Assembly (NCBI RefSeq): GCF_023511815.1
Contig: NZ_JAIMAV010000018.1
Coordinates: 1 to 40,158 of the forward strand
Length of the DNA stretch: 40,158 nt
Source of the DNA: Alicyclobacillus sp.
GTDB lineage: Bacteria; Bacillota; Bacilli; Alicyclobacillales; Alicyclobacillaceae
Reading direction: 5' to 3'
Part shown: one piece after another, positions 3,973 to 40,158 of the stretch
Numbering within the stretch: position 1 is the stretch's first letter
How the letters are laid out: each line of letters opens with the position of its first letter
Program-made: the position numbers and the translations under genes
Notes under the pieces: model-generated
Seen by the model: the letters and a program-made list of their open reading frames with translations, nothing else
The model's database searches: none
What the model was told of the DNA's origin: nothing

Positions 3973-5057
3973 GCGTTCGCCCCCCTCTCCCAAGCCGCCA
4001 GCCAAGAGCGCCGCTCGTCCTCGAGATCCGGGGTCCTTGTGCCGTACACGTGATCGAACAGGGCCTCGGCCGCATCCGGGGCCGGGTGCGATTCCGCCCG
4101 TTCCACCGCCTGGGCGATCCGCTCGTCCGCCTCGCGGAGCCACCGCTCCTCGGCCTGCTCGTCCCAGGCGCCGCGCGCTTCCAGATACAGGCGCAGGCGG
4201 CGGATGGGATCCCGGGTCTCCAGCCACGTCCGGTGCGCCTCGGGGTCCCGGTACCGGCGCGGATCGTCCGCCGTGGTATGGGGCCCCTGGCGGTACGTCA
4301 CCGCCTCAATCAGGGTCGGGCCGCCGCCCGACCGGGCGCGATCGACCGCGCGGCGCATCGCCGCGTACACCGCCACCACATCGTTGCCGTCCACACAGAT
4401 GCCCTCCATGTCGTAGGCCAGCGCGCGCTGAGCCACCGACCGGACCGCCATCTGGCGGCTGACCGGGACGCTGATGGCGTACTGATTGTTCTGGCAGAAG
4501 AACACCACCGGCAACCGAAACACGGATGCGAAATTGAGCGCTTCGTGAAAGTCGCCCTCGGAGGTGGCTCCGTCTCCGAAAAAGGTCGCCGCGATCCGCC
4601 GCTCGCCCCGCAGCTTGGACGCCCACGCCGCCCCGACGGCGTGCAGGGTCTGCGCCGCGATGATGATCTGGCCCGGCAGCATGTTCAATTCATCCGGCAT
4701 GCGGCCGGCGACCGGGTGCCCCTTGCTGAACAAAAGCGCCATCTCCGGCGGCAGCCCAAAAAACAGCATGCCCGCCACCTCGCGGTAGCTCGGAAACACC
4801 CAATCGTCCTTCTCCAACGCCGCGAAGCTGCCGATCTGCGCCGCCTCCTGCCCGGCAAAGGGCGCGTAGGTGCCGAGCCGGCCCTGGCGGTGCAAATTGA
4901 GCGCCCGCTGGTCAAATCGCCGTGCGAACACCATCCATCGGTAGAATTCGACGAGGCGCGCGTCGTCCAGGTCCTGTGGCAGCGCCCCCACCAGGGTTCC
5001 GTCCGGGGCCATCACCTGGTGGGCCGGCACGTCGTTGTCCCATCGGTATGTACGCAA
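3969..5057 (-). CDS. pdhA: Pyruvate dehydrogenase E1 component, alpha subunit
   Basis: About 362 aa. It holds the thiamine diphosphate motif GDGATSEGDFHEALNFAS continuing to CQNNQYAIS, and the phosphorylation-loop equivalent GPHTTADDPRRY. HTTADDP is the pyruvate-type form; branched-chain E1 usually reads HSTSDD. NRQG-like HRQGRLGTYAPFAGQEA near residue 60 also matches Bacillus PdhA. Start choice: AGGAGG directly abuts an ATG at 5063 (zero spacing) but lies 6 nt before an in-frame TTG at 5057, so I prefer TTG; the ATG start would add two residues. It follows the YheC-like gene by about 20 bp, and pdhB overlaps its stop. Confidence 0.94.
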   Translation of the reverse strand: MRTYRWDNDVPAHQVMAPDGTLVGALPQDLDDARLVEFYRWMVFARRFDQRALNLHRQGRLGTYAPFAGQEAAQIGSFAALEKDDWVFPSYREVAGMLFFGLPPEMALLFSKGHPVAGRMPDELNMLPGQIIIAAQTLHAVGAAWASKLRGERRIAATFFGDGATSEGDFHEALNFASVFRLPVVFFCQNNQYAISVPVSRQMAVRSVAQRALAYDMEGICVDGNDVVAVYAAMRRAVDRARSGGGPTLIEAVTYRQGPHTTADDPRRYRDPEAHRTWLETRDPIRRLRLYLEARGAWDEQAEERWLREADERIAQAVERAESHPAPDAAEALFDHVYGTRTPDLEDERRSWLAAWERGANA

Positions 5058-5078
5058 CGTCATCCTCCTCTTGGGGCC

Positions 5079-6161
5079 TCAGGCGCGCCCTCGGCGCGCC
5101 AGATGCACCAGAAACTCCGCGTTCAGTCGGGCCGCAATCCGCTTCATCTCCCCGTCCAGCAGCGACCGCGCCGGCTTCGGATTCATCTCAATCATCCATA
5201 CGCGGCCCTGGTCGTCGACCCCGAGATCGAATCCGATCAGTCCCGCGGCAGGCCGGTGGGCACTGACTTTCTTCGCGATGGCGTGGGCACATTCCTCCAG
5301 ATCCGCGACGGGAATCACCTTTCCTTCCCGGGCGGCGAGGGCGCGGGCCCGATCCAGATCCAATCGCTCTCCCCCGGCGATGATGTTGGTCACCACGCCG
5401 TCCGGCGCCGCCCACTTGGGAATCATGCCGACGGTGTGCCACACGCCCCCCAACCCCCGGTACACCACCACGCGGAAGTCGAGCTTGCGCCCGGCCAGCG
5501 TCATCAGCGACAGCCCCCGCTGCAGCAGATGCGGCGGTCGCAGGCGCGAGGCCAACCACGCCCGCAGCTCCCGCTCCGTCATCCATCGGCGGACGGCGCC
5601 TCCCTCCCGCCGGCGGTCCACACTCACGCGAAAGCGGCCGTCGGGGAAGGCCTCCACGCGCGCAACCCCCATCCCGCCGTAGCCGCCGATGGGCTTGACG
5701 TATCCGCATCGCCACTCGCGGATGTGCGAAATGGCCTCCCCGGGCGAGGTCAGCCGGTGTGTCTCCGGCAGATACCGGGCCAGATCCGTCTTGGTGAGCC
5801 AACGGTACATCTGCCACTTGTTCGGCAGCACCGGGTTGACCAGCGGAATTCCGAGCCGCCTGGCCCACCGGCGCAGCGAGCCGGTGTAGCCGCGGACGGC
5901 CAGGTGGACGAACACGTTCTCGTACAGGGCGTCCGGCAGCGGACGCCACGCCCGGTGCCACGAGCCGTGCGGCCGCGCCCGATCCACCGGCACCCAGGCG
6001 TAAACCCGCCGCGCCGGCCAGTCGACATCCTCCGGCCGAAACACCATCAGTTCGGCCCCCAGTTCCGCGGCCCGCGCCGCCATCTCCCGGTAGTAGCCGA
6101 TGGGCCGCGCACTCCCATCGCGGCGCCGCGGCAGGACCGTGGTGACGACACCCACCCGCAC
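5079..6161 (-). CDS. YheC/YheD-family endospore coat-associated ATP-grasp protein
   Basis: A 360-aa protein close in length to Bacillus YheC (about 363). The ATP-grasp fold is visible in its C-terminal two thirds: glycine-rich nucleotide loop KPIGGYGGMGVARV, a central RKLDFRVVVYRG strand, and metal-binding GFDLGVDDQGRVWMIEMN with the E-x-N pair. The N-terminus VRVGVVTTVLPRR looks like a YheC-type start. I chose GTG at 6161; GTG at 6176 is also possible and neither has a strong ribosome site. It lies only about 20 bp upstream of pdhA on the same strand, so it appears to be the first gene of the pdh operon or to share its transcript. The biochemical reaction of this family is not established to my knowledge. 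Confidence 0.85.
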   Translation of the reverse strand: MRVGVVTTVLPRRRDGSARPIGYYREMAARAAELGAELMVFRPEDVDWPARRVYAWVPVDRARPHGSWHRAWRPLPDALYENVFVHLAVRGYTGSLRRWARRLGIPLVNPVLPNKWQMYRWLTKTDLARYLPETHRLTSPGEAISHIREWRCGYVKPIGGYGGMGVARVEAFPDGRFRVSVDRRREGGAVRRWMTERELRAWLASRLRPPHLLQRGLSLMTLAGRKLDFRVVVYRGLGGVWHTVGMIPKWAAPDGVVTNIIAGGERLDLDRARALAAREGKVIPVADLEECAHAIAKKVSAHRPAAGLIGFDLGVDDQGRVWMIEMNPKPARSLLDGEMKRIAARLNAEFLVHLARRGRA

Positions 6162-30734: not shown

Positions 30735-31961
30735 TCACCGGCCGAGCCAGCGCGTCCGAACCGGCTGTGCCACCGGCCGCGGCCCGTGGACCATGCGACG
30801 CCCGTATCCGTACGCCGCGCCCCCGGTCACCAAAAGCAGCAGTCCGGTGACGAGAAACACACTGTGCGCCCCGAAGGCGCCGCCAATGGCACCGCCGACC
30901 AGCGGACCCACCATGTTGCCGAGTTGATTCGCGGTCTGATTGAGCCCGAATGCGCGGCCGCGGAACTCCGGGTCCGTGTTGGCCACCACCAACCCGTTGA
31001 GCGCCGGAAAGACGGCGCAAAAAAACGCCCCGTACACGAACCGGACGACGGAGAAGCCCCAGATGTCGTGAAACGGAATCTGCAATAGGTTGCCGATCCC
31101 GCCGCCGATGAGCCCGATCAACAGCACCTTTTGAAAGCCGACCTTGTCCGCCCACCTCCCCCATCGCGGAGCAAACAGCACGCTGGCGACGCCCGCCAGC
31201 GAGAACACGATGCCCGCGAGCAACGACGCGTCCTGCAACGACCCGCCGAGATCGGCGATGTAAAGCGGCAACACCGGCTCAATGGTCATGATGGAGAACG
31301 TGGTCAACACCGTCAGCCCCAGCGTCCAGACGAACGGGCGGTTGGACGCCGCAATCTTCATCGCCTCCACCACCGAACTGCGCGTCTTGCTGGGGACGAA
31401 CCGTTCCTCCGTGACGAAGAACAACACCAGCAAGGTCGAGAGCAACACGAGAATGCCCGCGCTGGCAAATGCGACCCGATTCCCGAACAGCCTGGCCAAC
31501 CCGCCGCCCAACAGCGGCCCGAGGATGCCCCCCACCGCGTTGCCGGTCGACATCAGGGCCAGAGCCCACCCGACCCGCGCCTCCGGGGTGTTGGTCGCCA
31601 CCAGCGCGATGGCTCCCGGGACGTATCCGGCGAGCGCCCCCTGCAGCGCGCGCAGGACCAACAGCTCGTACGGATTTGTCACCAGCGCGGTCAGAATGTA
31701 CAGCGCGCACAATGAGAAACCGGCCCGCAGGATCATCGGCTTCCGGCCGTACTTGTCGGCCAGAGACCCCCAATACGGGGAGACCAGCGCGCCGGTCAAA
31801 AACGTGACGCTGTACAGCAGCCCCGACCACAGCTCGGTCTGCTGATGAACGCCGATTTTCAAGAGGAACAGGGGTAAAAACGGGACCACCATGGAAAAGC
31901 TGGCCGACGTGACCAGCACGCCGAACCACAGCAACCACAGATTTCGCTTCCAGGTCTCCAT
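30735..31961 (-). CDS. MFS transporter, DHA1-like efflux permease
   Basis: A 408-aa carrier with 12 predicted helices. The cytoplasmic loop 2-3 signature reads WGSLADKYGRKPMILRAG, with its repeat in the second half, PRWGRWADKVGFQKVLLIG. The antiporter motif C-like stretch is ALMSTGNAVGGILGPLLGGG. These mark the drug:H+ antiporter (12-TM) group. The ATG at 31961 follows GGAGGCGGCG; open sequence upstream to 32105 crosses the terminator and is rejected. It is monocistronic. The substrate is unknown. Confidence 0.9.
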   Translation of the reverse strand: METWKRNLWLLWFGVLVTSASFSMVVPFLPLFLLKIGVHQQTELWSGLLYSVTFLTGALVSPYWGSLADKYGRKPMILRAGFSLCALYILTALVTNPYELLVLRALQGALAGYVPGAIALVATNTPEARVGWALALMSTGNAVGGILGPLLGGGLARLFGNRVAFASAGILVLLSTLLVLFFVTEERFVPSKTRSSVVEAMKIAASNRPFVWTLGLTVLTTFSIMTIEPVLPLYIADLGGSLQDASLLAGIVFSLAGVASVLFAPRWGRWADKVGFQKVLLIGLIGGGIGNLLQIPFHDIWGFSVVRFVYGAFFCAVFPALNGLVVANTDPEFRGRAFGLNQTANQLGNMVGPLVGGAIGGAFGAHSVFLVTGLLLLVTGGAAYGYGRRMVHGPRPVAQPVRTRWLGR

Positions 31962-32079
31962 CGCCGCCTCCGGATTCCAGCTGGGATGCCTCGATTCTAC
32001 GCTCTTTCGGCGCGCGAAGGAATCCGAAAATCCGGCGAGATCCCGCCGATTTTGCAGATCTCTTGGAACACGGTGAAAA

Positions 32080-32112
32080 CAACCCGGCGAGACGCGCCTT
32101 CTCACCGGGTTG
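32080..32112 (-). terminator. Terminator of the TRAP/CoA operon
   Basis: On the minus strand a 13-bp stem with one mismatch (32112-32100 with 32092-32080) and 7-nt loop is followed by TTTTCACC. It begins 8 bp after the dctP stop and marks the end of the long minus-strand operon. Confidence 0.8.
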
Positions 32113-32120
32113 CGGCGATT

Positions 32121-33182
32121 TCATCCCTTCTTGTTGTGGCTCATCGCGTCCTGGATCACGTCCGCGCCGATCTTCGAGGTCCACTCGTCGTACACCGGCT
32201 TCAGCGCATCGCGCCACTTCTGCACGTCCTCTGGCGTCAGGGTGTAGATCTGCATCTTGCCTGTCGCCTTGATCTTGTCCAGCGCCGATGCGTTGAGCTC
32301 AGCCGCCTTCTGGCGCGCGACCTGTGTCCCCGCCTTGACCCCGTCCATGACAATCTTCTTGGTCGCGTCGTTCAGGCTGTTCCAGAACTTCGTATTCGTC
32401 AAGAGGACATAGTCGACCCGGGTGTGGTTGGTGATGGTCATGTACTTCTGGACCTCGTAGAACTTCTTGGATTCGATGTTGCTGAAGGTGTTCTCCTCAC
32501 CGTCCACGGTCCCCTGCTGCAGCGCGGTGTACAACTCGTCGAAGGGGATGGACACCGAACCCGCGCCGAGCGTCGAATACACTTTCTCCAACACCTGCCC
32601 GCCCTGGGTGCGGAATTTCAGGCCTTTCATATCCTCCGGTGACTTGATGGGTCGAACATTATTCGTAATGGACTTCGGTCCGTTCGGCCACATGGCGAGG
32701 CCAAGAACACCGTCCTTCTCCAGGTGTTTGAAGATCTCCTGGCCTTTCGGGCCATCCCAGAAAGCCTCCGCCGCCTCATCGCTGTCGAACAAGAACGGCA
32801 TCGACGGAATGTTGAAGCCCGGGTCGTTGCCGACCAGCTTCGCCATGTCGGGGATGATGAACTGCACATTGTTGGCCACCAGATTCTGATATTCATCCTT
32901 GTCTCCGAACAATTGGCTGTTCGGATACACCTGCACCTTGATCTTGCCGCCCGATTCCTTTTCAATCGTGTCCTTCATGGCGAGTGCGCCCTGGTGTTTC
33001 GGGGTATCCTCCGCCACCACGTGCGAGATCTTGATGGTCAACGACTGAATGTCCCCGCCCGCCGAACCCCCGCCGGCATTTGCCGGTGAACCGCCCGCGG
33101 ATTGGGTTTGCCCGCAGGCCGATAAGCCAACGGCTAACAGCGGTGCAGCCAAGATGGCCGCCCAGCGCTTCCAGCGAAACAT
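32121..33182 (-). CDS. dctP: TRAP transporter substrate-binding lipoprotein DctP
   Basis: A 353-aa extracytoplasmic binding protein. Residues 1-22 are a lipoprotein signal (MFRWKRWAAILAAPLLAVGL then SAC) with lipid-anchor Cys23, followed by a Gly/Ser linker to about residue 45. The DctP fold follows: KISHVVAEDTPKHQGALAMK, VYPNSQLFGDKDEY, and MKGLKFRTQGGQVLE holding the conserved Arg that binds a substrate carboxylate. The ATG at 33182 follows GGGGG about 6 nt before. It is the last gene of the operon, 86 bp after dctM. With DctQM it should import an organic acid using the sodium gradient; the operon context suggests a C5 dicarboxylate. Confidence 0.93.
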   Translation of the reverse strand: MFRWKRWAAILAAPLLAVGLSACGQTQSAGGSPANAGGGSAGGDIQSLTIKISHVVAEDTPKHQGALAMKDTIEKESGGKIKVQVYPNSQLFGDKDEYQNLVANNVQFIIPDMAKLVGNDPGFNIPSMPFLFDSDEAAEAFWDGPKGQEIFKHLEKDGVLGLAMWPNGPKSITNNVRPIKSPEDMKGLKFRTQGGQVLEKVYSTLGAGSVSIPFDELYTALQQGTVDGEENTFSNIESKKFYEVQKYMTITNHTRVDYVLLTNTKFWNSLNDATKKIVMDGVKAGTQVARQKAAELNASALDKIKATGKMQIYTLTPEDVQKWRDALKPVYDEWTSKIGADVIQDAMSHNKKG

Positions 33183-33268
33183 GTGGTTTCCCCCTTTGAA
33201 TTTCCCGGATGGTTCTGACATGAGGCCGCAAAGCGGGTGATGACCGCCCCCGGCCCTCCAACCCCTGG

Positions 33269-34537
33269 TCACTTTGCCAACGTCAGCGACAACCCTGGGA
33301 AGACGATGACCAGCACCAGCGCAATCAACATCAACCCGTAGAACGGCACAACCCCCTTGACCACCTCCCCGATCTTCTCACGCGCTATGCCGCTGACCAC
33401 AAAGAGATTGAGGCCGACGGGCGGCGTGATCATCGCGAACTCCATGTTCATGGTCATGATGATGGCGAACTGGATCACGTTGATGTGGAACAGGGCCAAC
33501 ACCGGCAACAGGATCGGCAGCGTGATGAGGATGATCGCCACCGACTCGAGGAACATCCCCAGGATGAAGAACATGATGTTGACCCCGAGAATGAACAACC
33601 ACTTGTTCGAGGTGCTCGACTCAATCCACTGCGCGAAGTCCTGCGGCACCTGTTCGGTCGTCAAAAACATGCCGAACACGGTCGCCGACGCGATGATGAG
33701 AAAGATCATGGCGGTGATGTTGATGGACTCGCGCAGCACCTCGAGGAACCCCTTCCAGGTCATCTCGCGGTACACCAGGACGGACACGAGGAATCCATAC
33801 GCCCCGGCGACGATGGACGCCTCGGTGGGCGTCACCGCGCCGGAGTAGATGCCCCCGAGGATGATCACCGGCAGCAGGAATCCCCAGATGGCCTTGCCCG
33901 TCTTGCGCCACCGTTCCTGCATGCTCTCGCGCGGCAGTCCGCCGAAGTTTTTGATGCGCGCGTAGATGACCGCCGAGACCAGCAGGATGCCGCCGAGCAC
34001 GAGGCCCGGGATGATCCCGGCGGAGAACAGCTTGCCAACCGACTCCTCCGCGACGGAACCGTAGATGATGAGCGGGATGGACGGCGGGATGAGGATGCCG
34101 AGCGTCCCCGATGCGGCCACCAATCCCATGGCGTAGCGTTTGCTGTAACCGGACTCCACCATGGCCGGGATCATGATGGCGCCGATGGCGGCCGCCGTCG
34201 CGGGGCTCGATCCGGAGATGGCCGCGAAAATCATGCAGGCGAGCACGGTGACGACCGCGACCCCGCCGCGCATGTGGCCAACCCAGGCGCGCAGCGCGGA
34301 AATCAGGTGGTTCGACAGACCGCCCTTGGACATGATGGCGCCGGCGAACACAAATCCCGGGATGGCCATCAGAGTCGCCGAATTGAGCGCGCTGAACATC
34401 TTCTGGATGACGGTGTACAGCGTGAAATCGACCAGGTGAAGCGCGATCAGGCTCGCCACGCCGAGGGACACGGCGATCGGCACCCGAATCAGGCAGAGGA
34501 GAGCGAAAGTTCCGAACAAAACGACCGTGGCGTTCAC
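33269..34537 (-). CDS. dctM: TRAP transporter large permease DctM
   Basis: A 422-aa membrane protein with about 12 helices, the transport-catalysing subunit. DctM marks: IPGFVFAGAIMSKGG, AAISGSSPATAAAIGAIMIP, GTLGILIPPSIPLIIYG, the second-half GAVTPTEASIVAGAYG, and MITPPVGLNLFVVSGIA. The GTG at 34537 overlaps the dctQ stop (GTGA), so the membrane subunits are coupled. It partners with DctQ and the lipoprotein DctP downstream. Confidence 0.95.
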   Translation of the reverse strand: MNATVVLFGTFALLCLIRVPIAVSLGVASLIALHLVDFTLYTVIQKMFSALNSATLMAIPGFVFAGAIMSKGGLSNHLISALRAWVGHMRGGVAVVTVLACMIFAAISGSSPATAAAIGAIMIPAMVESGYSKRYAMGLVAASGTLGILIPPSIPLIIYGSVAEESVGKLFSAGIIPGLVLGGILLVSAVIYARIKNFGGLPRESMQERWRKTGKAIWGFLLPVIILGGIYSGAVTPTEASIVAGAYGFLVSVLVYREMTWKGFLEVLRESINITAMIFLIIASATVFGMFLTTEQVPQDFAQWIESSTSNKWLFILGVNIMFFILGMFLESVAIILITLPILLPVLALFHINVIQFAIIMTMNMEFAMITPPVGLNLFVVSGIAREKIGEVVKGVVPFYGLMLIALVLVIVFPGLSLTLAK

Positions 34538-35073
34538 GAAACGGGCACCCCCCCGTGTCCCATCTCGGCCGTCTGTTTCTCGTGGCTGATGTGCCCCAGA
34601 ATTTCGACGCGATCCCCGCGCAGGGCGCGGTACGCCTTGACCACGAAGAACAACCCCAGAAACGCCATGCCGATGGGCATGATGAGATACGGGATCCAGA
34701 TCGGCATGCCGACGTCAATCGTCACGATGCCCTGCTGCCGGGCCAACAGCGTGATCTGCACACCGGTGACCGTCATGAAGACGCTGTACCCAAATCCAAT
34801 CAGATTGGCGATCACGCTGATCCATCGCTTGACCGCGTACGGCAGACGGTCGTACAGCAGGTCGACCACGATGTGGTGATTGTCCCGCAGGGCCATGCCG
34901 AACCCGAGGAACACCGCCCACGTCATCACCGATTCAAAGATCTCGAGCGCCCAGGGCGGCGGCATGTTGAACACATACCGCATCACGACCGCGTACAGGT
35001 TGATCAGCATGCCGAGGACAAAGAAGATGGACGCCAACGCCTCCTCCGCCTGGCCGATCCGCCTCAGCCACAT
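34534..35073 (-). CDS. dctQ: TRAP transporter small permease DctQ
   Basis: A 179-aa protein with four predicted helices (for example ASIFFVLGMLINLYAVVMRY, WAVFLGFGMALRDNHHIVVD, VIANLIGFGYSVFMTVTG and LIMPIGMAFLGLFFVVKAYR). RYVFNMPPPWALEIFESVM and the HHIVVDLL stretch are typical DctQ signatures. The ATG at 35073 follows AAAGGAGG. It starts 114 bp after the acyl-CoA dehydrogenase stop, the widest gap within the operon, where a GC-rich hairpin lies. Confidence 0.93.
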   Translation of the reverse strand: MWLRRIGQAEEALASIFFVLGMLINLYAVVMRYVFNMPPPWALEIFESVMTWAVFLGFGMALRDNHHIVVDLLYDRLPYAVKRWISVIANLIGFGYSVFMTVTGVQITLLARQQGIVTIDVGMPIWIPYLIMPIGMAFLGLFFVVKAYRALRGDRVEILGHISHEKQTAEMGHGGVPVS

Positions 35074-35110
35074 GCGCACGCCTCCTTTCCTCCCCACTCA
35101 ATTTTGCCCC

Positions 35111-35135
35111 GGCGCCCCCCGCTTGGGGCGGCGCC
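35111..35135. other. GC-rich hairpin between the acyl-CoA dehydrogenase and dctQ
   Basis: GGCGCC (35111-35116) pairs with GGCGCC (35130-35135), and CCCC (35117-35120) with GGGG (35125-35128), leaving a 4-nt loop and a one-base bulge. There is no T-tract on the minus strand, so it may be a leaky terminator or an mRNA-stabilising element that sets catabolic versus transporter expression. Confidence 0.45.
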
Positions 35136-35187
35136 GAGCCGCCTTTCGCCCGCGGCGGCGGTTTGTCATTCGGGCCGTCACCGGCCG

Positions 35188-36330
35188 TCAGTACGACTTC
35201 GGCAATCCGAGAACGTGCTCCGCGATGTACGCCAGCACCAGGTTGGTCGACACCGGCGCCACCTGATACAGGCGGGTCTCGCGGAATTTGCGCTCGATGT
35301 CGAACTCCTCCGTGAACCCGAACCCGCCATGGGTCTGCAGCGCCACGTTGGCCGCCTCCCAGGACGCCTCCGCCGCCAGCAACTTCGCCATGTTGGCCTG
35401 AGGGCCGCAGGCCTCGCCCGCGTCAAACCGGGCGGCCGCGTCAAACCGCATCCGGTCGGCCGCCTCGACGCGGACGTACGCCTGCGCGATGGGAAACTGG
35501 ATTCCCTGGTTCTTCCCGATGGGCCGCCCGAAGACCACCCGCTCCTTCGCATAGGCCACGGCTCGGTCGATGAACCAGCGCCCGTCGCCGATGCACTCCG
35601 CCGCAATCAGGATGCGCTCGGAGTTCATCCCGTCGAGGATGTACCGAAAGCCCTGCCCCTCCTCGCCGATGCGGTTCTCCACCGGCACCTCCAGGTCTTC
35701 AAAGAACAGCTCCGTGGTCGCGTGATTCATCATCGTCCGGATGGGCCGAATCGTCAGCCCGCGTCCCACCGCCTCGCGCAGGTCCACCAACAGGACCGTC
35801 AGCCCCTCCGTCTTTTTCACCACCTCCTGCAGGGGTGTCGTCCGCACCAAAAGCACCATCAGATCCGAGTGCTCCGCCCGGGAGATGAACACCTTCTGCC
35901 CGTTGACGATGTACCGGTCGCCCTTGCGGATCGCCGTCGTGCGCAGATGGGTGGTGTCCGATCCGGTCGTCGGCTCGGTCACCCCGAATGCCTGCAGGCG
36001 CAGCCGCCCGGCGGCAATCTCCGGCAGATACGTCCGCCGCTGCGCCTCCGACCCGTGGCGCAAGAGCACGCTCATGGTGTACATCTGCGCGTGGCAGGCG
36101 GCCGCGTTGCCGCCGGATCGATGGATCTCCTCGAGAATGACCGACGCCTCCGTCACGCCGAGCCCCGCGCCCCCGTATTCCTCCGGAATGAGGGCCGCCA
36201 GATATCCGGCCTCCGTCAGCTCGCGCACAAATTCCTCCGGGTACGCGCGCCGGGCGTCCAACTCCCGCCAGTACCGCCCCGGATACCGCGCACAGACGCG
36301 CCGCACACCCTCCCGCAGCTCCTCCAGCAT
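35188..36330 (-). CDS. Acyl-CoA dehydrogenase of the C5-dicarboxylate cluster
   Basis: A 380-aa flavoprotein. Visible: LAALIPEEYGGAGLGVTEAS, the flavin signature FGVTEPTTGSDTTHLRT, AYAKERVVFGRPIGKNQGIQ, and LQTHGGFGFTEEFDIERKFR near the C-terminus. At the place where short/medium-chain enzymes have YEGT with the catalytic Glu, this one reads LYQVAPVSTN, so the base must come from elsewhere (isovaleryl-CoA dehydrogenase uses an internal Glu). The ATG at 36330 follows GGAGGAGG and overlaps the lyase stop by one base. In the Pseudomonas itaconate cluster an acyl-CoA dehydrogenase also sits between these genes. Methylsuccinyl-CoA or itaconyl-CoA-type substrates are plausible guesses. Confidence 0.9.
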   Translation of the reverse strand: MLEELREGVRRVCARYPGRYWRELDARRAYPEEFVRELTEAGYLAALIPEEYGGAGLGVTEASVILEEIHRSGGNAAACHAQMYTMSVLLRHGSEAQRRTYLPEIAAGRLRLQAFGVTEPTTGSDTTHLRTTAIRKGDRYIVNGQKVFISRAEHSDLMVLLVRTTPLQEVVKKTEGLTVLLVDLREAVGRGLTIRPIRTMMNHATTELFFEDLEVPVENRIGEEGQGFRYILDGMNSERILIAAECIGDGRWFIDRAVAYAKERVVFGRPIGKNQGIQFPIAQAYVRVEAADRMRFDAAARFDAGEACGPQANMAKLLAAEASWEAANVALQTHGGFGFTEEFDIERKFRETRLYQVAPVSTNLVLAYIAEHVLGLPKSY

Positions 36331-37262
36331 CACCGGCCGCCTCCTCCCCCACCCGGCGGCGCATCGGCGGAACCGCCGGCCTCCACCGCCCCGTCCCCGA
36401 CCATCGTCAGGACGCGGCGGGCCCACTCGTACATCGGGCGGTCGACCATCCGGCCATCCACCCCGACGGCCCCCGTTCCCTCCGCCGCCGCCCGCTCGTA
36501 CACCGCAACCAGCTCGCGCGCCCGCGCCACCTCATCCGGGGTGGGCGAGAACGTCTCGTTGGCGATGGACACCTGCCGGGGATGGATGACGAGCTTCCCC
36601 GCGAAGCCCATCCGGCGGGCGGTGGCGCAGGCCTCCCGAAACCGGTCGAGATCCTGAAAATCCGGGTCCACCGTGTCCACCGGCGGATGGACCCCCGCCG
36701 CCCGCGAGGCCAGGACCAGCCGTGCGCGCGCGTGCTGCAGGATGGCCGAATCCAGCGCCTCGAGGCCGAGATCGAGCGCCAGGTCGACCGCGCCCAGGGC
36801 CAGCCGCACCACCTGCGGGCTGGCGGCGGCGATGGCGCGGGCGTTCTCCACCCCCGCCGCCGACTCCACCAGAGGGAGGATGGCGAATCGGGACCCCTCC
36901 ATGCCGCGGCGCGACGCCGCCCGGACCAAGAGGTCGAGAAACGACCGCACGTCGTCTTCCGACTCCGCCTTCGGCAGCATGAACCCGGCCAGATGCGGCG
37001 ACAGCGCGGCCTCGATGTCCTCCGGCAGCCATCGCCCGGGGTGATTGATCCGGACGTAGGTCGGCACCGGCACCGGCGCGGCCAGGACGTCCGCCACGAT
37101 CGCCCGCGCCCTGTCCTTCGCGCCTTCAGCAACGCCATCCTCCAGGTCGAGCAGGAGGACGTCCGCCCCCCGCCCAGGCGCTTTGCGCACCTTTTCCCCA
37201 TCGCTCGCCGGGACGAACAGCCAGGAGCGGCCCGGGTGCCCGCCCGTTTTTGGGTCATTCAC
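36330..37262 (-). CDS. HpcH/CitE-like CoA-ester lyase (candidate citramalyl-CoA lyase)
   Basis: A 310-aa TIM-barrel lyase. Landmarks: GRSWLFVPASDGEKVRKA, LLLDLEDGVAEGAKDRAR, YVRINHPG (substrate Arg), ILPLVESAAGVENARAI (metal ligand Glu), ALGAVDLALDLG (metal ligand Asp), and KLVIHPRQVSIANETFSPT. This is the CitE/Ccl/Mcl type, which cleaves citramalyl-CoA, malyl-CoA or citryl-CoA. With a MaoC hydratase and a class III CoA-transferase in the same operon, citramalyl-CoA to acetyl-CoA plus pyruvate is most likely. The GTG at 37262 overlaps the MaoC gene by 8 nt. The C-terminus ends in a Gly-rich tail. Confidence 0.88.
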   Translation of the reverse strand: MNDPKTGGHPGRSWLFVPASDGEKVRKAPGRGADVLLLDLEDGVAEGAKDRARAIVADVLAAPVPVPTYVRINHPGRWLPEDIEAALSPHLAGFMLPKAESEDDVRSFLDLLVRAASRRGMEGSRFAILPLVESAAGVENARAIAAASPQVVRLALGAVDLALDLGLEALDSAILQHARARLVLASRAAGVHPPVDTVDPDFQDLDRFREACATARRMGFAGKLVIHPRQVSIANETFSPTPDEVARARELVAVYERAAAEGTGAVGVDGRMVDRPMYEWARRVLTMVGDGAVEAGGSADAPPGGGGGGR

Positions 37263-37782
37263 GCGGTGTCACCCCCGGCAGGTCCTGCAGCGTACGCATC
37301 CAGGGCTCAACCGGCCCCTGGCCCCGTTTGTACACCATGAACGTGCGCACGAACGAGATCACCACCTGCCCGCGCTGGTTGTACCCGACCGTCCGCACCT
37401 TGACAATGCCGACGTTGGGCCGCGACCTGGACTCTCGCTTTTCCAACACCTCGCTGTACGAGTACACGGTGTCTCCTTCGAAGACCGGATTGGGCAAGCG
37501 CACCTCATCCCACCCAAGGTTCGCCATCACGTTCTGCGAGACATCCGCGACCGACTGGCCGGTGACGAGCGCAAGGGTGAAGGTGGAGTCGACGAGCGGC
37601 CGGCCGAACTCCGTCTGTCGGGCGTACTCCGCGTCGAAGTGAATCGGATTGGTGTTCTGCGTCAGCAGCGTGAACCAGATGTTGTCCGTCTGCGTCACCG
37701 TCCGCCCCAGGGCGTGCGGGTACACATCCCCGATCTCAAAATCTTCATAGAAGCGGCCGGTCCAACCGGGTTTGACCGTCAA
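37255..37782 (-). CDS. MaoC-family enoyl-CoA hydratase (candidate itaconyl/mesaconyl-CoA hydratase)
   Basis: A 175-aa hot-dog protein. It starts WTGRFYEDFEIGDVYPHALG, and the MaoC hydratase motif is clear in LTQNTNPIHFDAEYARQTEF (catalytic Asn/His with the downstream acidic residue), then GRPLVDSTFTLALVTGQSV. VFEGDTVYSYSEVLEKRESR is the family's substrate-channel strand. Single-domain size fits Ich/RipB and mesaconyl-C4-CoA hydratase. Start choice: GGAGGTG lies 6 nt before TTG 37782, so I prefer it to ATG 37797, which would place the ribosome site inside the gene. It is 25 bp after the CoA-transferase and overlaps the lyase gene. Confidence 0.88.
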   Translation of the reverse strand: MTVKPGWTGRFYEDFEIGDVYPHALGRTVTQTDNIWFTLLTQNTNPIHFDAEYARQTEFGRPLVDSTFTLALVTGQSVADVSQNVMANLGWDEVRLPNPVFEGDTVYSYSEVLEKRESRSRPNVGIVKVRTVGYNQRGQVVISFVRTFMVYKRGQGPVEPWMRTLQDLPGVTPRE

Positions 37783-37807
37783 GCCCCTCACCTCCATCGA
37801 GCCATGC

Positions 37808-38998
37808 CTAGACGACGCCCTGCCGACGCCAGGCCGCCACGTCCTCCGGTGCGTACCCGAGCTCCTTCAGGATGCGCTCACTGTGCTCCCCCGCCGCCGG
37901 AACCGGGTCCATCCGAACCGGCCAGTCGGCGGCCCGGAAAGGCGGCGCCAGCGCCGACACCGGACCGGCGGGGGTGTCGACCGCATGCCAGCATCCGCGC
38001 GAGCGCAGCTGCGGATGGTTGGCGAAGTCGGCGACGCGGTTGAGCGGCGCCATCGCGATGTTCGCCGCATCGAGGCGAGCCATCAACACATCCGACGGCA
38101 ACTCCGCGAGGATCCCCTGGATCTGGGCCTCGAGTTGTGCGCGATGCCTGATCCGATCCGGATTGGTCCGGTAACGCGGGTCGTCGGCGAGCGCCGGGCG
38201 GCCGAGCACCTGCTCGCAGAAGCGATGCCACTCGCGGTCATTCTGAACCGCCAAAAAGACCCGGCGGCCGTCCGCCGCGGTGAACGCCCCGTACGGGCAG
38301 ATGGTCGCGTGGGCGGAGCCGGTCCGCGGCGGCTCCTGCCCGCCGTACACCGCGTAATAATACGGAAATCCCATCCACTCCCCGAGCGCCTCCAGCATCG
38401 ACACCTCGAGGTACCCCCCCTTCCCGGTTCGATCCCGCTGGCGCAACGCCGCCAGAATTCCGGAAAACGCATACATGCCGGCCGCGATGTCGGCCACCGC
38501 GATGCCCGCCTTGGACGGCGTCTCCTCGGTTCCCGTCACCGAGAGCAGCCCCGTCTCGCACTGAATCAAAAGGTCGTACGCCTTCCGGCCGGTGTACGGC
38601 CCGCCCCGGCCGTACCCGGAAATCTCGCAGACAATCAGACGAGGATACGAGGCGGTGAGCGTGTCGCGGTCAAACCCCAACCGGTCCATCGCGCCGGGGG
38701 CGAGGTTGTGCACAAACACGTCCGCCCGCGCCAGCAGGCGCTCGAGCACCGCCTTCCCGTCGGGGTGTTTCAGGTCCAGGGTCAACGACTCCTTCGAGCG
38801 GTTCACCCACACGAAGTGGCTCGACAGCCCGCGGACCGCCTGGTCATAGTGGCGGGCGAAATCCCCGACCCCGGGGCGTTCCACCTTGATCACCCGGGCG
38901 CCGAGATCGGCCAACTGCCGGGTGGCGAACGGCGCGGCCACCGCCTGTTCCACCGACACCACGGTGATCCCCTCGAGCGGCAATCCCACAGATTCCAC
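37808..38998 (-). CDS. CaiB/BaiF class III CoA-transferase (candidate itaconate/mesaconate CoA-transferase)
   Basis: A 396-aa enzyme that moves CoA between acids through an aspartyl intermediate. The catalytic Asp142 lies in KAYDLLIQCETGLLSVTG. Other class III marks: QLADLGARVIKVERPGVGDF, WVNRSKESLTLDLKHPDG, FVHNLAPGAMDRLG, ICEISGYG-like VCEISGYGRGGPYTG, and GIAVADIAAGMYAFSGIL. Pseudomonas itaconate CoA-transferase belongs to this class. The GTG at 38998 follows GAAGGAGGGG, 31 bp after the regulator gene. It likely activates the imported dicarboxylate using succinyl-CoA or acetyl-CoA; the donor is not visible. Confidence 0.9.
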   Translation of the reverse strand: MESVGLPLEGITVVSVEQAVAAPFATRQLADLGARVIKVERPGVGDFARHYDQAVRGLSSHFVWVNRSKESLTLDLKHPDGKAVLERLLARADVFVHNLAPGAMDRLGFDRDTLTASYPRLIVCEISGYGRGGPYTGRKAYDLLIQCETGLLSVTGTEETPSKAGIAVADIAAGMYAFSGILAALRQRDRTGKGGYLEVSMLEALGEWMGFPYYYAVYGGQEPPRTGSAHATICPYGAFTAADGRRVFLAVQNDREWHRFCEQVLGRPALADDPRYRTNPDRIRHRAQLEAQIQGILAELPSDVLMARLDAANIAMAPLNRVADFANHPQLRSRGCWHAVDTPAGPVSALAPPFRAADWPVRMDPVPAAGEHSERILKELGYAPEDVAAWRRQGVV

Positions 38999-39029
38999 CG
39001 GTCATCCCCTCCTTCGCGCGAACGTTCCC

Positions 39030-39755
39030 TCACGCCGGTCCAAGGCCGCCATCCGCGGGCCCGGGCGTGCGCGGCGGCCCTTGGGGCACCTCCTCCTTCG
39101 CATCGCGGGCCGTTGGCGCGAACCCCCGGAATGAGTGCAAAAATTCCACCATGCTCCGCCGGATGTGGGCGGCCATCACCGTCCGGGCCGTCTCGGCGTC
39201 CCCCGCCATCAGGGCCTCGACAATCCAGCGGTGCTCCAGTTGGGAATGCTCCACCTGTCCGGGGACCAATTGCGGAAGATGAGGCGGAAGCCCGTTCCAC
39301 ATCTGCTCCAGCAACTGCACCAGATTGCCGCTTCCGGAGGCCTCCCACACCGCGTGATGGAAGGCGTAGTTGGCTTCGACGAAGGCGTCGGCGTTGCCGG
39401 AGGCGGCCGCCCGGTCCGCCTCCTCGTGACAGGCCAGCACGTCGGTCAGGTCTCCGTTTTTACAGGCGCGCGCCGCCGCCTCCCCTTCCAGGAGGCTGCG
39501 GATGTCGTAGTGGTCCGCCACCTCCTCGGGCGAGAGCGGCCGGACCACCGCCCGCCGGTGATTCTCCAGCACCAGCAGTCCGTCGCGGGCCAGCATCAGA
39601 AACGCCTCCCGGACCGGCATGCGCGACACGCCGAGCCGGGACGCGACCGCTTCCTGGGTCAACGACTCCCCCCAGCGGATCTCCCCCCGATAGATGGCTT
39701 TGCGCAGCGCGTCCGCGACCTGTTCACGGACCGAGATCGACTTGATGGGATCCAC
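39030..39755 (-). CDS. FCD-domain GntR transcriptional regulator
   Basis: A 241-aa regulator. Residues 5-75 form the winged helix-turn-helix (VREQVADALRKAIYRGEIRW, VASRLGVSRMPVREAFLMLA). The C-terminal all-helical FCD ligand domain shows its metal-binding His pattern in NYAFHHAVWEAS and LEHRWIVEALMAGDAETART with MAAHIRRS. A disordered Pro/Gly tail of about 25 residues follows. The GTG at 39755 sits inside the end of the fumarase-like gene (32-nt overlap), preceded by GAGGAGGAG. It probably senses the dicarboxylate or its CoA product and controls this operon; the operator would lie beyond the right edge. Confidence 0.93.
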   Translation of the reverse strand: MDPIKSISVREQVADALRKAIYRGEIRWGESLTQEAVASRLGVSRMPVREAFLMLARDGLLVLENHRRAVVRPLSPEEVADHYDIRSLLEGEAAARACKNGDLTDVLACHEEADRAAASGNADAFVEANYAFHHAVWEASGSGNLVQLLEQMWNGLPPHLPQLVPGQVEHSQLEHRWIVEALMAGDAETARTVMAAHIRRSMVEFLHSFRGFAPTARDAKEEVPQGPPRTPGPADGGLGPA

Positions 39756-40158
39756 AGAGCTCCTCCTCGTCCTTCGTCAGCCGCGCCCGCCAGAGGCGCT
39801 GGTTCTCCGCGTACAGATCCCGCCCCTTTGTGTCGTAGGCGACCAACACCGGGAAATCGCGGACCCAAAGACGGGTGATGGCCTCCGGTCCGAGGTCGGG
39901 ATAGGCCAGAACCTCCTGGCGCTCCACGCAACGCCCCAACAGCGCCCCGGCGCCGCCGGTCGCCACGAAATAAACCGCGCCGTGGCGGCGCATGGCCTCC
40001 TTCACCGCCTCGCTCCGGTATCCCTTGCCGATGGTGGCCACCACGCCCATCTCGAGCATCAGCGGGGTGAACGGGTCCATGCGGCCGCTGGTGGTCGGCC
40101 CCGCCGCGCCGACGGGATGCGCGTCGTCTCCGGGAGACGGGCCGACGTAATAGATCAC
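39724..40158 (-). CDS. Class I fumarase/mesaconase beta part (partial)
   Basis: The C-terminal 144 residues of an Fe-S hydro-lyase; the start lies beyond the window. Diagnostic stretches: IYYVGPSPGDDAHPVGAAGP then TTSGRMDPFTPLML, GVVATIGKGYRSEAVKEAM, and YFVATGGAGALLGR, with LGPEAITRLWVRDFPVLVAY near the end. This is the beta domain of class I fumarase, tartrate dehydratase or mesaconase. Enzymes of this class hydrate fumarate and often mesaconate to (S)-citramalate. Its tight overlap with the regulator of a CoA-transferase/hydratase/lyase operon makes mesaconase activity attractive, but fumarase is equally allowed by sequence. Confidence 0.88.
   Translation of the reverse strand: MIYYVGPSPGDDAHPVGAAGPTTSGRMDPFTPLMLEMGVVATIGKGYRSEAVKEAMRRHGAVYFVATGGAGALLGRCVERQEVLAYPDLGPEAITRLWVRDFPVLVAYDTKGRDLYAENQRLWRARLTKDEEELCGSHQVDLGP

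Follow-up and report, generated by a model that had tools for sequence, protein, structure and literature searches.

We analysed a 40,158-nucleotide stretch of Alicyclobacillus sp. DNA (the window), which is the whole of contig C77, ending at position 40158, in a genome of 3.01 Mb, 165 contigs and 99.33% completeness. Nine minus-strand genes between positions 40158 and 32068, identified from open reading frames and a Pfam scan, are likely to form an operon for the uptake of branched C5 dicarboxylates and their breakdown to acetyl-CoA and pyruvate, with itaconate, (R)-methylsuccinate, mesaconate and (S)-citramalate as the most likely substrates. Judged by its protein families, the operon is a mosaic of two published variants of the itaconate pathway, with a fumarase of its own and without a methylsuccinate isomerase. 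The gene content, the clades into which the CoA-transferase and the dehydrogenase fall, the residues of the binding-protein pocket and the recurrence of the gene set elsewhere are direct observations, and from these we infer the enzyme activities, the order of the substrates and the regulation.

In the scheme that we favor, a tripartite ATP-independent periplasmic (TRAP) importer would take up itaconate and related acids, and the CoA-transferase would form the C4-CoA ester, with succinyl-CoA as donor if it works like Ict of Pseudomonas aeruginosa. A RipB-type hydratase would then isomerise and hydrate itaconyl-CoA to (S)-citramalyl-CoA, which the CitE-like lyase would split into acetyl-CoA and pyruvate. 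(R)-Methylsuccinate would enter via the Mcd-type dehydrogenase as mesaconyl-C4-CoA and pass through the same hydratase and lyase, while mesaconate may be converted to (S)-citramalate by the fumarase acting as a mesaconase and go on through the CoA-transferase and the lyase, the hydratase being bypassed. There is precedent for both side entries. In a P. putida strain carrying the P. aeruginosa cluster, the dehydrogenase gene was required for methylsuccinate, and mesaconate entered by way of a host class I fumarase, with Ict and Ccl required and Ich not (PMC9875883). Mcd itself has been purified as a methylsuccinyl-C4-CoA dehydrogenase that is specific for the C4 ester (PMC12290011). The initial annotation had listed methylsuccinate use as an alternative to itaconate degradation; as the dehydrogenase of such clusters serves methylsuccinate (PMC12290011, PMC9875883), it is better seen as part of the same operon.

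Gene order and operon structure

The order first proposed for the nine genes (partial fumarase beta, FCD-GntR regulator, CoA-transferase, MaoC, CitE-like lyase, acyl-CoA dehydrogenase, DctQ, DctM and DctP, with short gaps or overlaps) was borne out by Pfam matches and coordinates (Table 1). The scores in bits were 132.8 for Fumerase_C, 389.7 for CoA_transf_3, 84.8 for MaoC and 137.6 for HpcH_HpaI among the enzymes, 81.3 for FCD and 55.9 for GntR in the regulator, and 114.2, 408.1 and 326.7 for DctQ, DctM and DctP; in the acyl-CoA dehydrogenase the N, M and C domains were all matched. The spacing is operon-like. Overlaps join the fumarase beta and regulator genes (32 bases), MaoC and lyase (8 bases) and DctQ and DctM (4 bases), and gaps of 31, 10 and 90 bases separate the regulator from the CoA-transferase, the CoA-transferase from MaoC and the dehydrogenase from DctQ. 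The lyase and dehydrogenase genes overlap by 1 base if the latter starts at the ATG at 36330, which we favor over the start of the mechanical open reading frame at 36426. DctP starts either at 33182 or 4 bases within DctM; its mechanical frame begins at 33272, and we favor the ATG at 33182, which is followed by a lipobox-like LSAC.

Table 1. Features of the operon, with one related cluster (last row; positions within loci L168 and L169)
Feature	Position	Strand	Basis
Class I fumarase beta (split type), likely mesaconase/fumarase part	39724..40158	-	Fumerase_C profile positions 86-204; 5' end cut
FCD-GntR regulator, probably of the operon	39030..39755	-	Pfam FCD and GntR
Class III CoA-transferase, Ict-like	37808..38998	-	57% to P. 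aeruginosa Ict; Ict clade; D170
Single-domain MaoC hydratase, probably RipB type	37255..37797	-	RipB_Ich 214 bits; 60% to RipB; QNTNPIHFD
CitE-like lyase, likely (S)-citramalyl-CoA lyase	36330..37262	-	42% to Ccl; R71, E133, D160
Acyl-CoA dehydrogenase, likely methylsuccinyl-C4-CoA dehydrogenase Mcd	35188..36330	-	67% to Mcd; Mcd clade
DctQ, small TRAP permease	34534..35097	-	Pfam DctQ 114 bits
DctM, large TRAP permease	33269..34537	-	Pfam DctM 408 bits; 45% to IctM
DctP solute-binding lipoprotein	32121..33182	-	42% to IctP; 11/12 contacts including V234
Intrinsic terminator of the operon	32068..32125	-	fold -26.9 kcal/mol, z -3.74
Crotonase and HMG-CoA-lyase-like gene inside an Ict-Mcd-Msi-Ccl-FumA-FumB cluster, then MFS transporter	L168:472-8981; L169:8106-16218		

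The terminator that had been suggested after DctP also holds up, since a hairpin lies directly behind that gene and none of 200 shuffles equalled its folding energy. A consensus terminator scan did not have this hairpin in its list, probably because of its short T tail. A promoter scan of positions 31800-40158 returned 2 sites against 1.1 expected and was uninformative. The FCD-GntR protein probably controls the operon; GntR genes 33-38% identical to this one adjoin related Bacillota clusters. Beyond the terminator, on the same strand, lies an MdtG-type MFS exporter (30735-32105) that we do not count in the operon.

Assignment of the enzymes and the importer

Pairwise identities to characterised enzymes are from blastp. 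The P. aeruginosa reference cluster was a plasmid record with the lyase stretch at 99.6% identity and the gene order as in the papers. The CoA-transferase matches P. aeruginosa Ict over 392 aa and, in a tree of 55 rows, falls with it into a 37-row clade with a Shimodaira-Hasegawa-like approximate likelihood ratio (SH-aLRT) support of 99; this clade excludes six further CoA-transferases that the genome encodes (L001-L005, L007), which are 31-39% identical to that of the window. The dehydrogenase matches Mcd over 379 aa and shares a 38-row clade with it in a tree of 50 rows (SH-aLRT 99). D170 of the transferase (36/36 rows), R71, E133 and D160 of the lyase (36/36 each) and E270 and R271 of the dehydrogenase (39/39) are invariant, and we take them to be catalytic positions in the Frc, CitE and isovaleryl-CoA dehydrogenase families, respectively. 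NCBIfam names are undecisive for the transferase and the dehydrogenase because P. aeruginosa Ict and Mcd match only other families there, below cut-off. These are quick trees with SH-aLRT as their sole support measure, and several rows have long branches. Reference loci in the CoA-transferase, dehydrogenase and lyase trees were chosen by name, and L006, L012, L013, L027 and L042 were left out of them as second copies of included loci or because the gene is split over two frames. The comparison with Ict/Ich/Ccl and RipABC that the initial annotation had called for was informative for the transferase; the lyase tree (34 rows) has support too weak to choose among Ccl-like groups.

On sequence grounds the hydratase (180 aa) is not of the P. 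aeruginosa Ich type and probably belongs to the RipB type. RipB_Ich was its best NCBIfam model, it carries the QNTNPIHFD motif and, along 150 aa, it matches Paraburkholderia caribensis RipB at 60% identity; the Paraburkholderia protein passes the curated RipB/Ich model (356 bits, cut-off 340). No blastp match at 1e-4 was found to Ich of P. aeruginosa, Marinobacter or Phaeobacter, and its length does not fit the long Pseudomonas-type Ich (about 275 aa). In a tree of 92 rows, 13 Bacillota rows, the window's hydratase among them, form a clade (SH-aLRT 98), and cluster genes adjoin 13/13 of these: Ict or Mcd in 11, and DctM, GntR and Msi-like genes in the other 2 (the 11 include the window and L028, which are not among the 80 loci sampled below and whose context was labelled by hand). 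Over all rows, pathway loci are not separated from others and context changes 13 times, so that MaoC by itself is not diagnostic.

The hydratase also bears on another route that the initial annotation had raised, the 3-hydroxypropionate bicycle, which together with its haloarchaeal counterpart would run from mesaconyl-C1-CoA through beta-methylmalyl-CoA to glyoxylate and propionyl-CoA. The protein does pass the Pfam mesaconyl-CoA hydratase model (82.7 bits, cut-off 26.5), but it is single-domain and covers one half of that two-half model (positions 21-168 of 353), and its match to the NCBIfam mesaconyl-CoA hydratase model is weak (86 of 560 bits). Likewise, the transferase matches the succinyl-CoA:mesaconate CoA-transferase model at 204.6 of 700, yet P. 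aeruginosa Ict reaches a similar 201 of 700. On the model for the Mct-type intramolecular CoA-transferase (2-methylfumaryl-CoA isomerase) the operon's transferase reached just 60 of 725 bits, and the dehydrogenase groups with the C4-specific Mcd (PMC12290011). With NCBIfam scores far under cut-off and a Pfam match over one half, both routes were rejected, and we consider them very unlikely. As a separate observation, hydratases 72-78% identical to that of the window occur at seven Pseudomonadota loci, from Burkholderiales and one other Pseudomonadota metagenome-assembled genome (MAG) (L083, L086, L090, L092, L110, L116, L032), alongside genes for an AMP-ligase, a Liv-type binding protein, an SDR and ETF-QO, a conserved arrangement that may represent another pathway using the same hydratase family.

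The lyase is 42% identical to P. aeruginosa Ccl and 34% to P. caribensis RipC. A CitE-like lyase serving both leucine breakdown and citramalyl-CoA has been described (PMC6689899), and an operon for leucine catabolism of the Mycobacterium tuberculosis kind might be imagined here, the more so as in two relatives of the window the Mcd-like and Ict-like genes are accompanied by a 3-hydroxy-3-methylglutaryl (HMG)-CoA-lyase-like gene and by a crotonase. However, the Pfam scan found no carboxylase among the ten proteins covered, on which ground this candidate was rejected, and an Ict-like CoA-transferase, an Mcd-like dehydrogenase and a TRAP importer with a dicarboxylate pocket speak for something else. 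We give leucine catabolism hardly any credence.

The fumarase-type beta part of the initial annotation is confirmed as to family, with one correction: because the window is a contig ending at 40158, the gene is cut off at its 5' end, and no alpha partner for it was found in the assembly, the sole alpha match being a separate, fused class I fumarase of 507 aa on contig C88. The fragment is only 38% identical to this enzyme, so the operon's fumarase is a second one in the genome. Its nearest relatives suggest that it is of the split type and that the alpha part probably lies in the gap past the contig end. It is 55% identical to FumB of a Thermus cluster, and within the family of the window 71%, 69% and 66% identical to proteins of genomes G010, G457 and G009, as against 37-42% to the family's other, mostly fused, fumarases. 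This operon-type beta part occurs in 4 of 41 family genomes (the window's own and these three), in 4/4 of them at most 5 kb from an Mcd-like gene; the Mcd-like genes of G010, G457 and G009 are 77-83% identical to the dehydrogenase of another family member, G011. We think it likely that the operon's own class I fumarase is a dedicated mesaconase.

Another reading is that the operon is mainly for methylsuccinate or mesaconate, with the fumarase and the Mcd-type dehydrogenase as the key enzymes, the hydratase acting as a mesaconyl-C4-CoA hydratase and itaconate used incidentally. Consistent with this idea, P. putida with the P. aeruginosa cluster used itaconate without the dehydrogenase and mesaconate was served by a fumarase (PMC9875883), and such clusters have been argued to be more methylsuccinate than itaconate clusters (PMC12290011). 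Mcd-like genes are also slightly commoner near the hydratase than Ict-like ones (35 versus 29 in the best 80 of at least 582 loci). Nevertheless, a methylsuccinate isomerase (MmgE/PrpD) is absent from the operon and none was matched in the 99.33% complete genome; (S)-methylsuccinate should thus be poorly used, and an operon of this kind would use only one enantiomer well. Methylaspartase, one source of mesaconate, did not rise above cut-off in our search (23.1 of 27 bits), and DctP has the valine that admits itaconate. We regard a primary role in methylsuccinate or mesaconate use as possible, if rather doubtful, and prefer an operon for several branched C5 dicarboxylates, itaconate included.

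With regard to the importer, DctP and DctM resemble IctP and IctM of P. aeruginosa. The IctP numbering of the reference record fits all 12 ligand contacts printed in PMC12599236, which singles out the replacement of Leu by V234 as what lets itaconate in. DctP keeps V234 among its 11 shared contacts, while this position is V in 0/17 and Leu in 4/17 of the further DctP-type proteins compared, which come from relatives and from this genome; Anoxybacillus and Brevibacillus DctP proteins have Ile. It could still be argued that this is an importer for succinate, fumarate and malate that has come to lie by chance next to a CoA-ester operon with which it has nothing to do: the solved structures nearest to DctP, including IctP (9ht3), carry the name of dicarboxylate or C4-dicarboxylate binding protein, C4 acids are what IctP itself binds by preference (PMC12599236), and two relatives, G011 and G016, have the enzymes and no DctP, DctQ or DctM match in the stretches read. 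We find a chance association unlikely, given that (i) DctQMP lies in the same strand run as the enzymes, ahead of the terminator; (ii) V234 stands in place of Leu; and (iii) MaoC adjoins DctPQM in Anoxybacillus and Brevibacillus also.

Several observations weigh against an operon for C5 dicarboxylates as we have drawn it. The hydratase reaches 214 bits where RipB_Ich has a cut-off of 340, and the lyase 154 bits on RipC_Ccl, below the NCBIfam cut-off of 375 (on which P. aeruginosa Ccl gets no further than 158). Between the window and G011, hydratase and dehydrogenase agree at 82-84%, the lyase at only 52%. The fumarase is a fragment whose partner is not seen in the assembly, and DctQ is hardly alike IctQ (29% over only 65 aa). 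S91 of IctP, next to the C2 substituent of the ligand, is D in DctP, so that DctP may bind some other C4 or C5 acid best. Finally, MaoC genes at least 71% identical to ours had no scored cluster gene within 6.5 kb at 28/80 of the loci sampled, and at 21/49 of those with full flanks. These cluster-free loci all fall outside the window's Bacillota clade; at two of them, L095 and L084, nothing related was found among nine neighbour proteins.

Occurrence of the gene set

That sample consisted of the best 80 of at least 582 confirmed hydratase loci, scored over 6.5 kb, and consequently favours close relatives; flanks were short in 31 loci and full in 49. Ict-like genes were found at 29 loci, Mcd-like at 35, both at 24 and either at 40; lyase at 19, isomerase-like MmgE/PrpD at 17, GntR at 10 and DctM at 2. 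A class I fumarase was present at 11, including 8 of the 40 loci with Ict or Mcd. Neither a Pseudomonas-type Ich nor a RipA-like gene was seen within that distance at any of the 80. The 49 full-flank loci gave Ict 17, Mcd 20, both 16, fumarase 8 and none 21. Similar gene sets were found in other Bacillota, Rubrobacter and Thermus. Fumarase alpha and beta genes stand beside the set in Pseudalkalibacillus, Oceanobacillus (2/3), Lentibacillus, Rubrobacter and others and on a Thermus plasmid, and about 8 kb from it in Aneurinibacillus, while in Anoxybacillus and Brevibacillus MaoC has DctPQM, GntR and MmgE/PrpD adjoining.

Within the window's own family the operon is patchy: Mcd-like genes occur in 7/41 genomes (E 1e-120) and Ict-like genes in 4/41 (1e-110, which misses G016, whose gene spans two frames), and two relatives of the same genus had no Mcd-like or Ict-like gene and no RipB-type hydratase at these thresholds. 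In a search of 61 genomes, 12 of which gave some match at 1e-10, a RipB-type hydratase at 84% was found in G011 and G016, in a set of transferase, hydratase, lyase, MmgE/PrpD and dehydrogenase; the MmgE/PrpD gene, placed between those for lyase and dehydrogenase, is present in the relatives at L027 and L028. G016, an Alicyclobacillus MAG, has its CoA-transferase gene divided between two frames and an MmgE/PrpD gene that appears to be cut short (L027:2020-3038, 4455-5363), which may reflect sequencing errors or decay.

Two further relatives, G457 and G009, carry GntR, MmgE/PrpD, crotonase, Mcd, HMG-lyase-like, Ict, lyase, FumA, FumB and MFS genes (Table 1), with no RipB-type MaoC in the 18 kb read. 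Their crotonase and HMG-CoA-lyase-like pair (L168, L169) could catalyse the steps at citramalyl-CoA with chemistry resembling that of the leucine pathway. The G457 cluster is followed, about 6.6 kb downstream (L168:15631-16086), by a VOC protein 65% identical to PA0880 of the P. aeruginosa cluster, which is a 2-hydroxyparaconate lactonase (PMC9875883). A set in G010 (L167:4214-13188) has HMG-lyase-like, Mcd-like (83%), crotonase, FumB, FumA and GntR genes, a non-Ict CoA-transferase (37%) and an ADP-forming acyl-CoA ligase-like gene, and may represent a form in which the acid is activated at the expense of ATP.

If our reading is true, the pathway extends to Gram-positive and hot-habitat bacteria (spore-formers, Rubrobacter, Thermus), its hydratase step has been swapped between pathway versions, and heat-tolerant enzymes are on offer. 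Isocitrate lyase, which itaconate inhibits (PMC9875883), is present in the window's genome, so besides its nutritional role the operon could have a protective one.

Comparison with known pathway variants

The itaconate pathway has been described as two convergent variants whose enzymes are unrelated or distantly related (PMC12290011). The initial annotation's proposal that this is the same pathway as Ict/Ich/Ccl of P. aeruginosa is supported by sequence as far as the pathway goes. The gene set is another matter: it combines the Ict-type transferase and Mcd of one variant with the RipB-type hydratase of the other, and is thus a mosaic. Like P. aeruginosa PA0878-PA0886 (Ich, Mcd, Msi, Ict, Ccl, IctPQM), the window has an Ict-type transferase, an Mcd-type dehydrogenase, a lyase 42% identical to Ccl and nearly the same TRAP pocket; unlike it, the window has a hydratase of the other family, lacks Msi and a VOC lactonase gene, and adds a class I fumarase and an FCD-GntR regulator where LysR genes flank the Pseudomonas cluster. 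With the Yersinia-type RipABC, as found on plasmid 2 of P. caribensis, it appears to share the hydratase family (60% to RipB). The CoA-transferase there is of the acetyl-CoA hydrolase/transferase type, whereas ours is class III; our lyase is distant from RipC (34%); and the RipABC surroundings have no acyl-CoA dehydrogenase or TRAP annotated, both of which the window has.

The five-gene cluster of Cupriavidus necator (Ich, Mcd, Msi, Ict, Ccl; PMC12290011) is described with the same enzyme steps but differs in having an isomerase, which the window lacks, and no fumarase or TRAP, which it has. Since that cluster is called homologous to the P. aeruginosa one (PMC12290011), its hydratase should, by this description, be of the other type. 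Methylsuccinate isomerases have been reported almost only from Pseudomonadota (96.2%; PMC12290011). The plasmid pAA2-2c of Thermus thermophilus, in whose record we found no function given for the cluster, brings together fumarase alpha/beta, dehydrogenase, CoA-transferase, RipB-type MaoC, lyase, GntR and TRAP, the difference being a TAXI-type TRAP and two divergent gene runs. Bacillus cereus appears in PMC13307414 among species with Rip-like three-gene clusters; if this listing is right, a Gram-positive case has already been named in the literature. Among the matches listed for Gram-positives, titles and abstract openings named no mosaic cluster comparable to it. What would appear to be new is the mosaic composition, together with the dedicated fumarase and an occurrence that reaches beyond Pseudomonadota.

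We see about an even chance that such clusters form a third, mosaic lineage of C5-dicarboxylate use next to the two published variants. It would have a fixed core (Ict-type transferase, Mcd and often a dedicated mesaconase) and interchangeable hydratase/lyase modules, these being a Pseudomonas-type Ich, a RipB-type hydratase or, as in two relatives of the window, a crotonase paired with an HMG-CoA-lyase-like enzyme, and its range would take in Bacillota, Actinomycetota, Chloroflexota, Acidobacteriota, Thermus and some Pseudomonadota.

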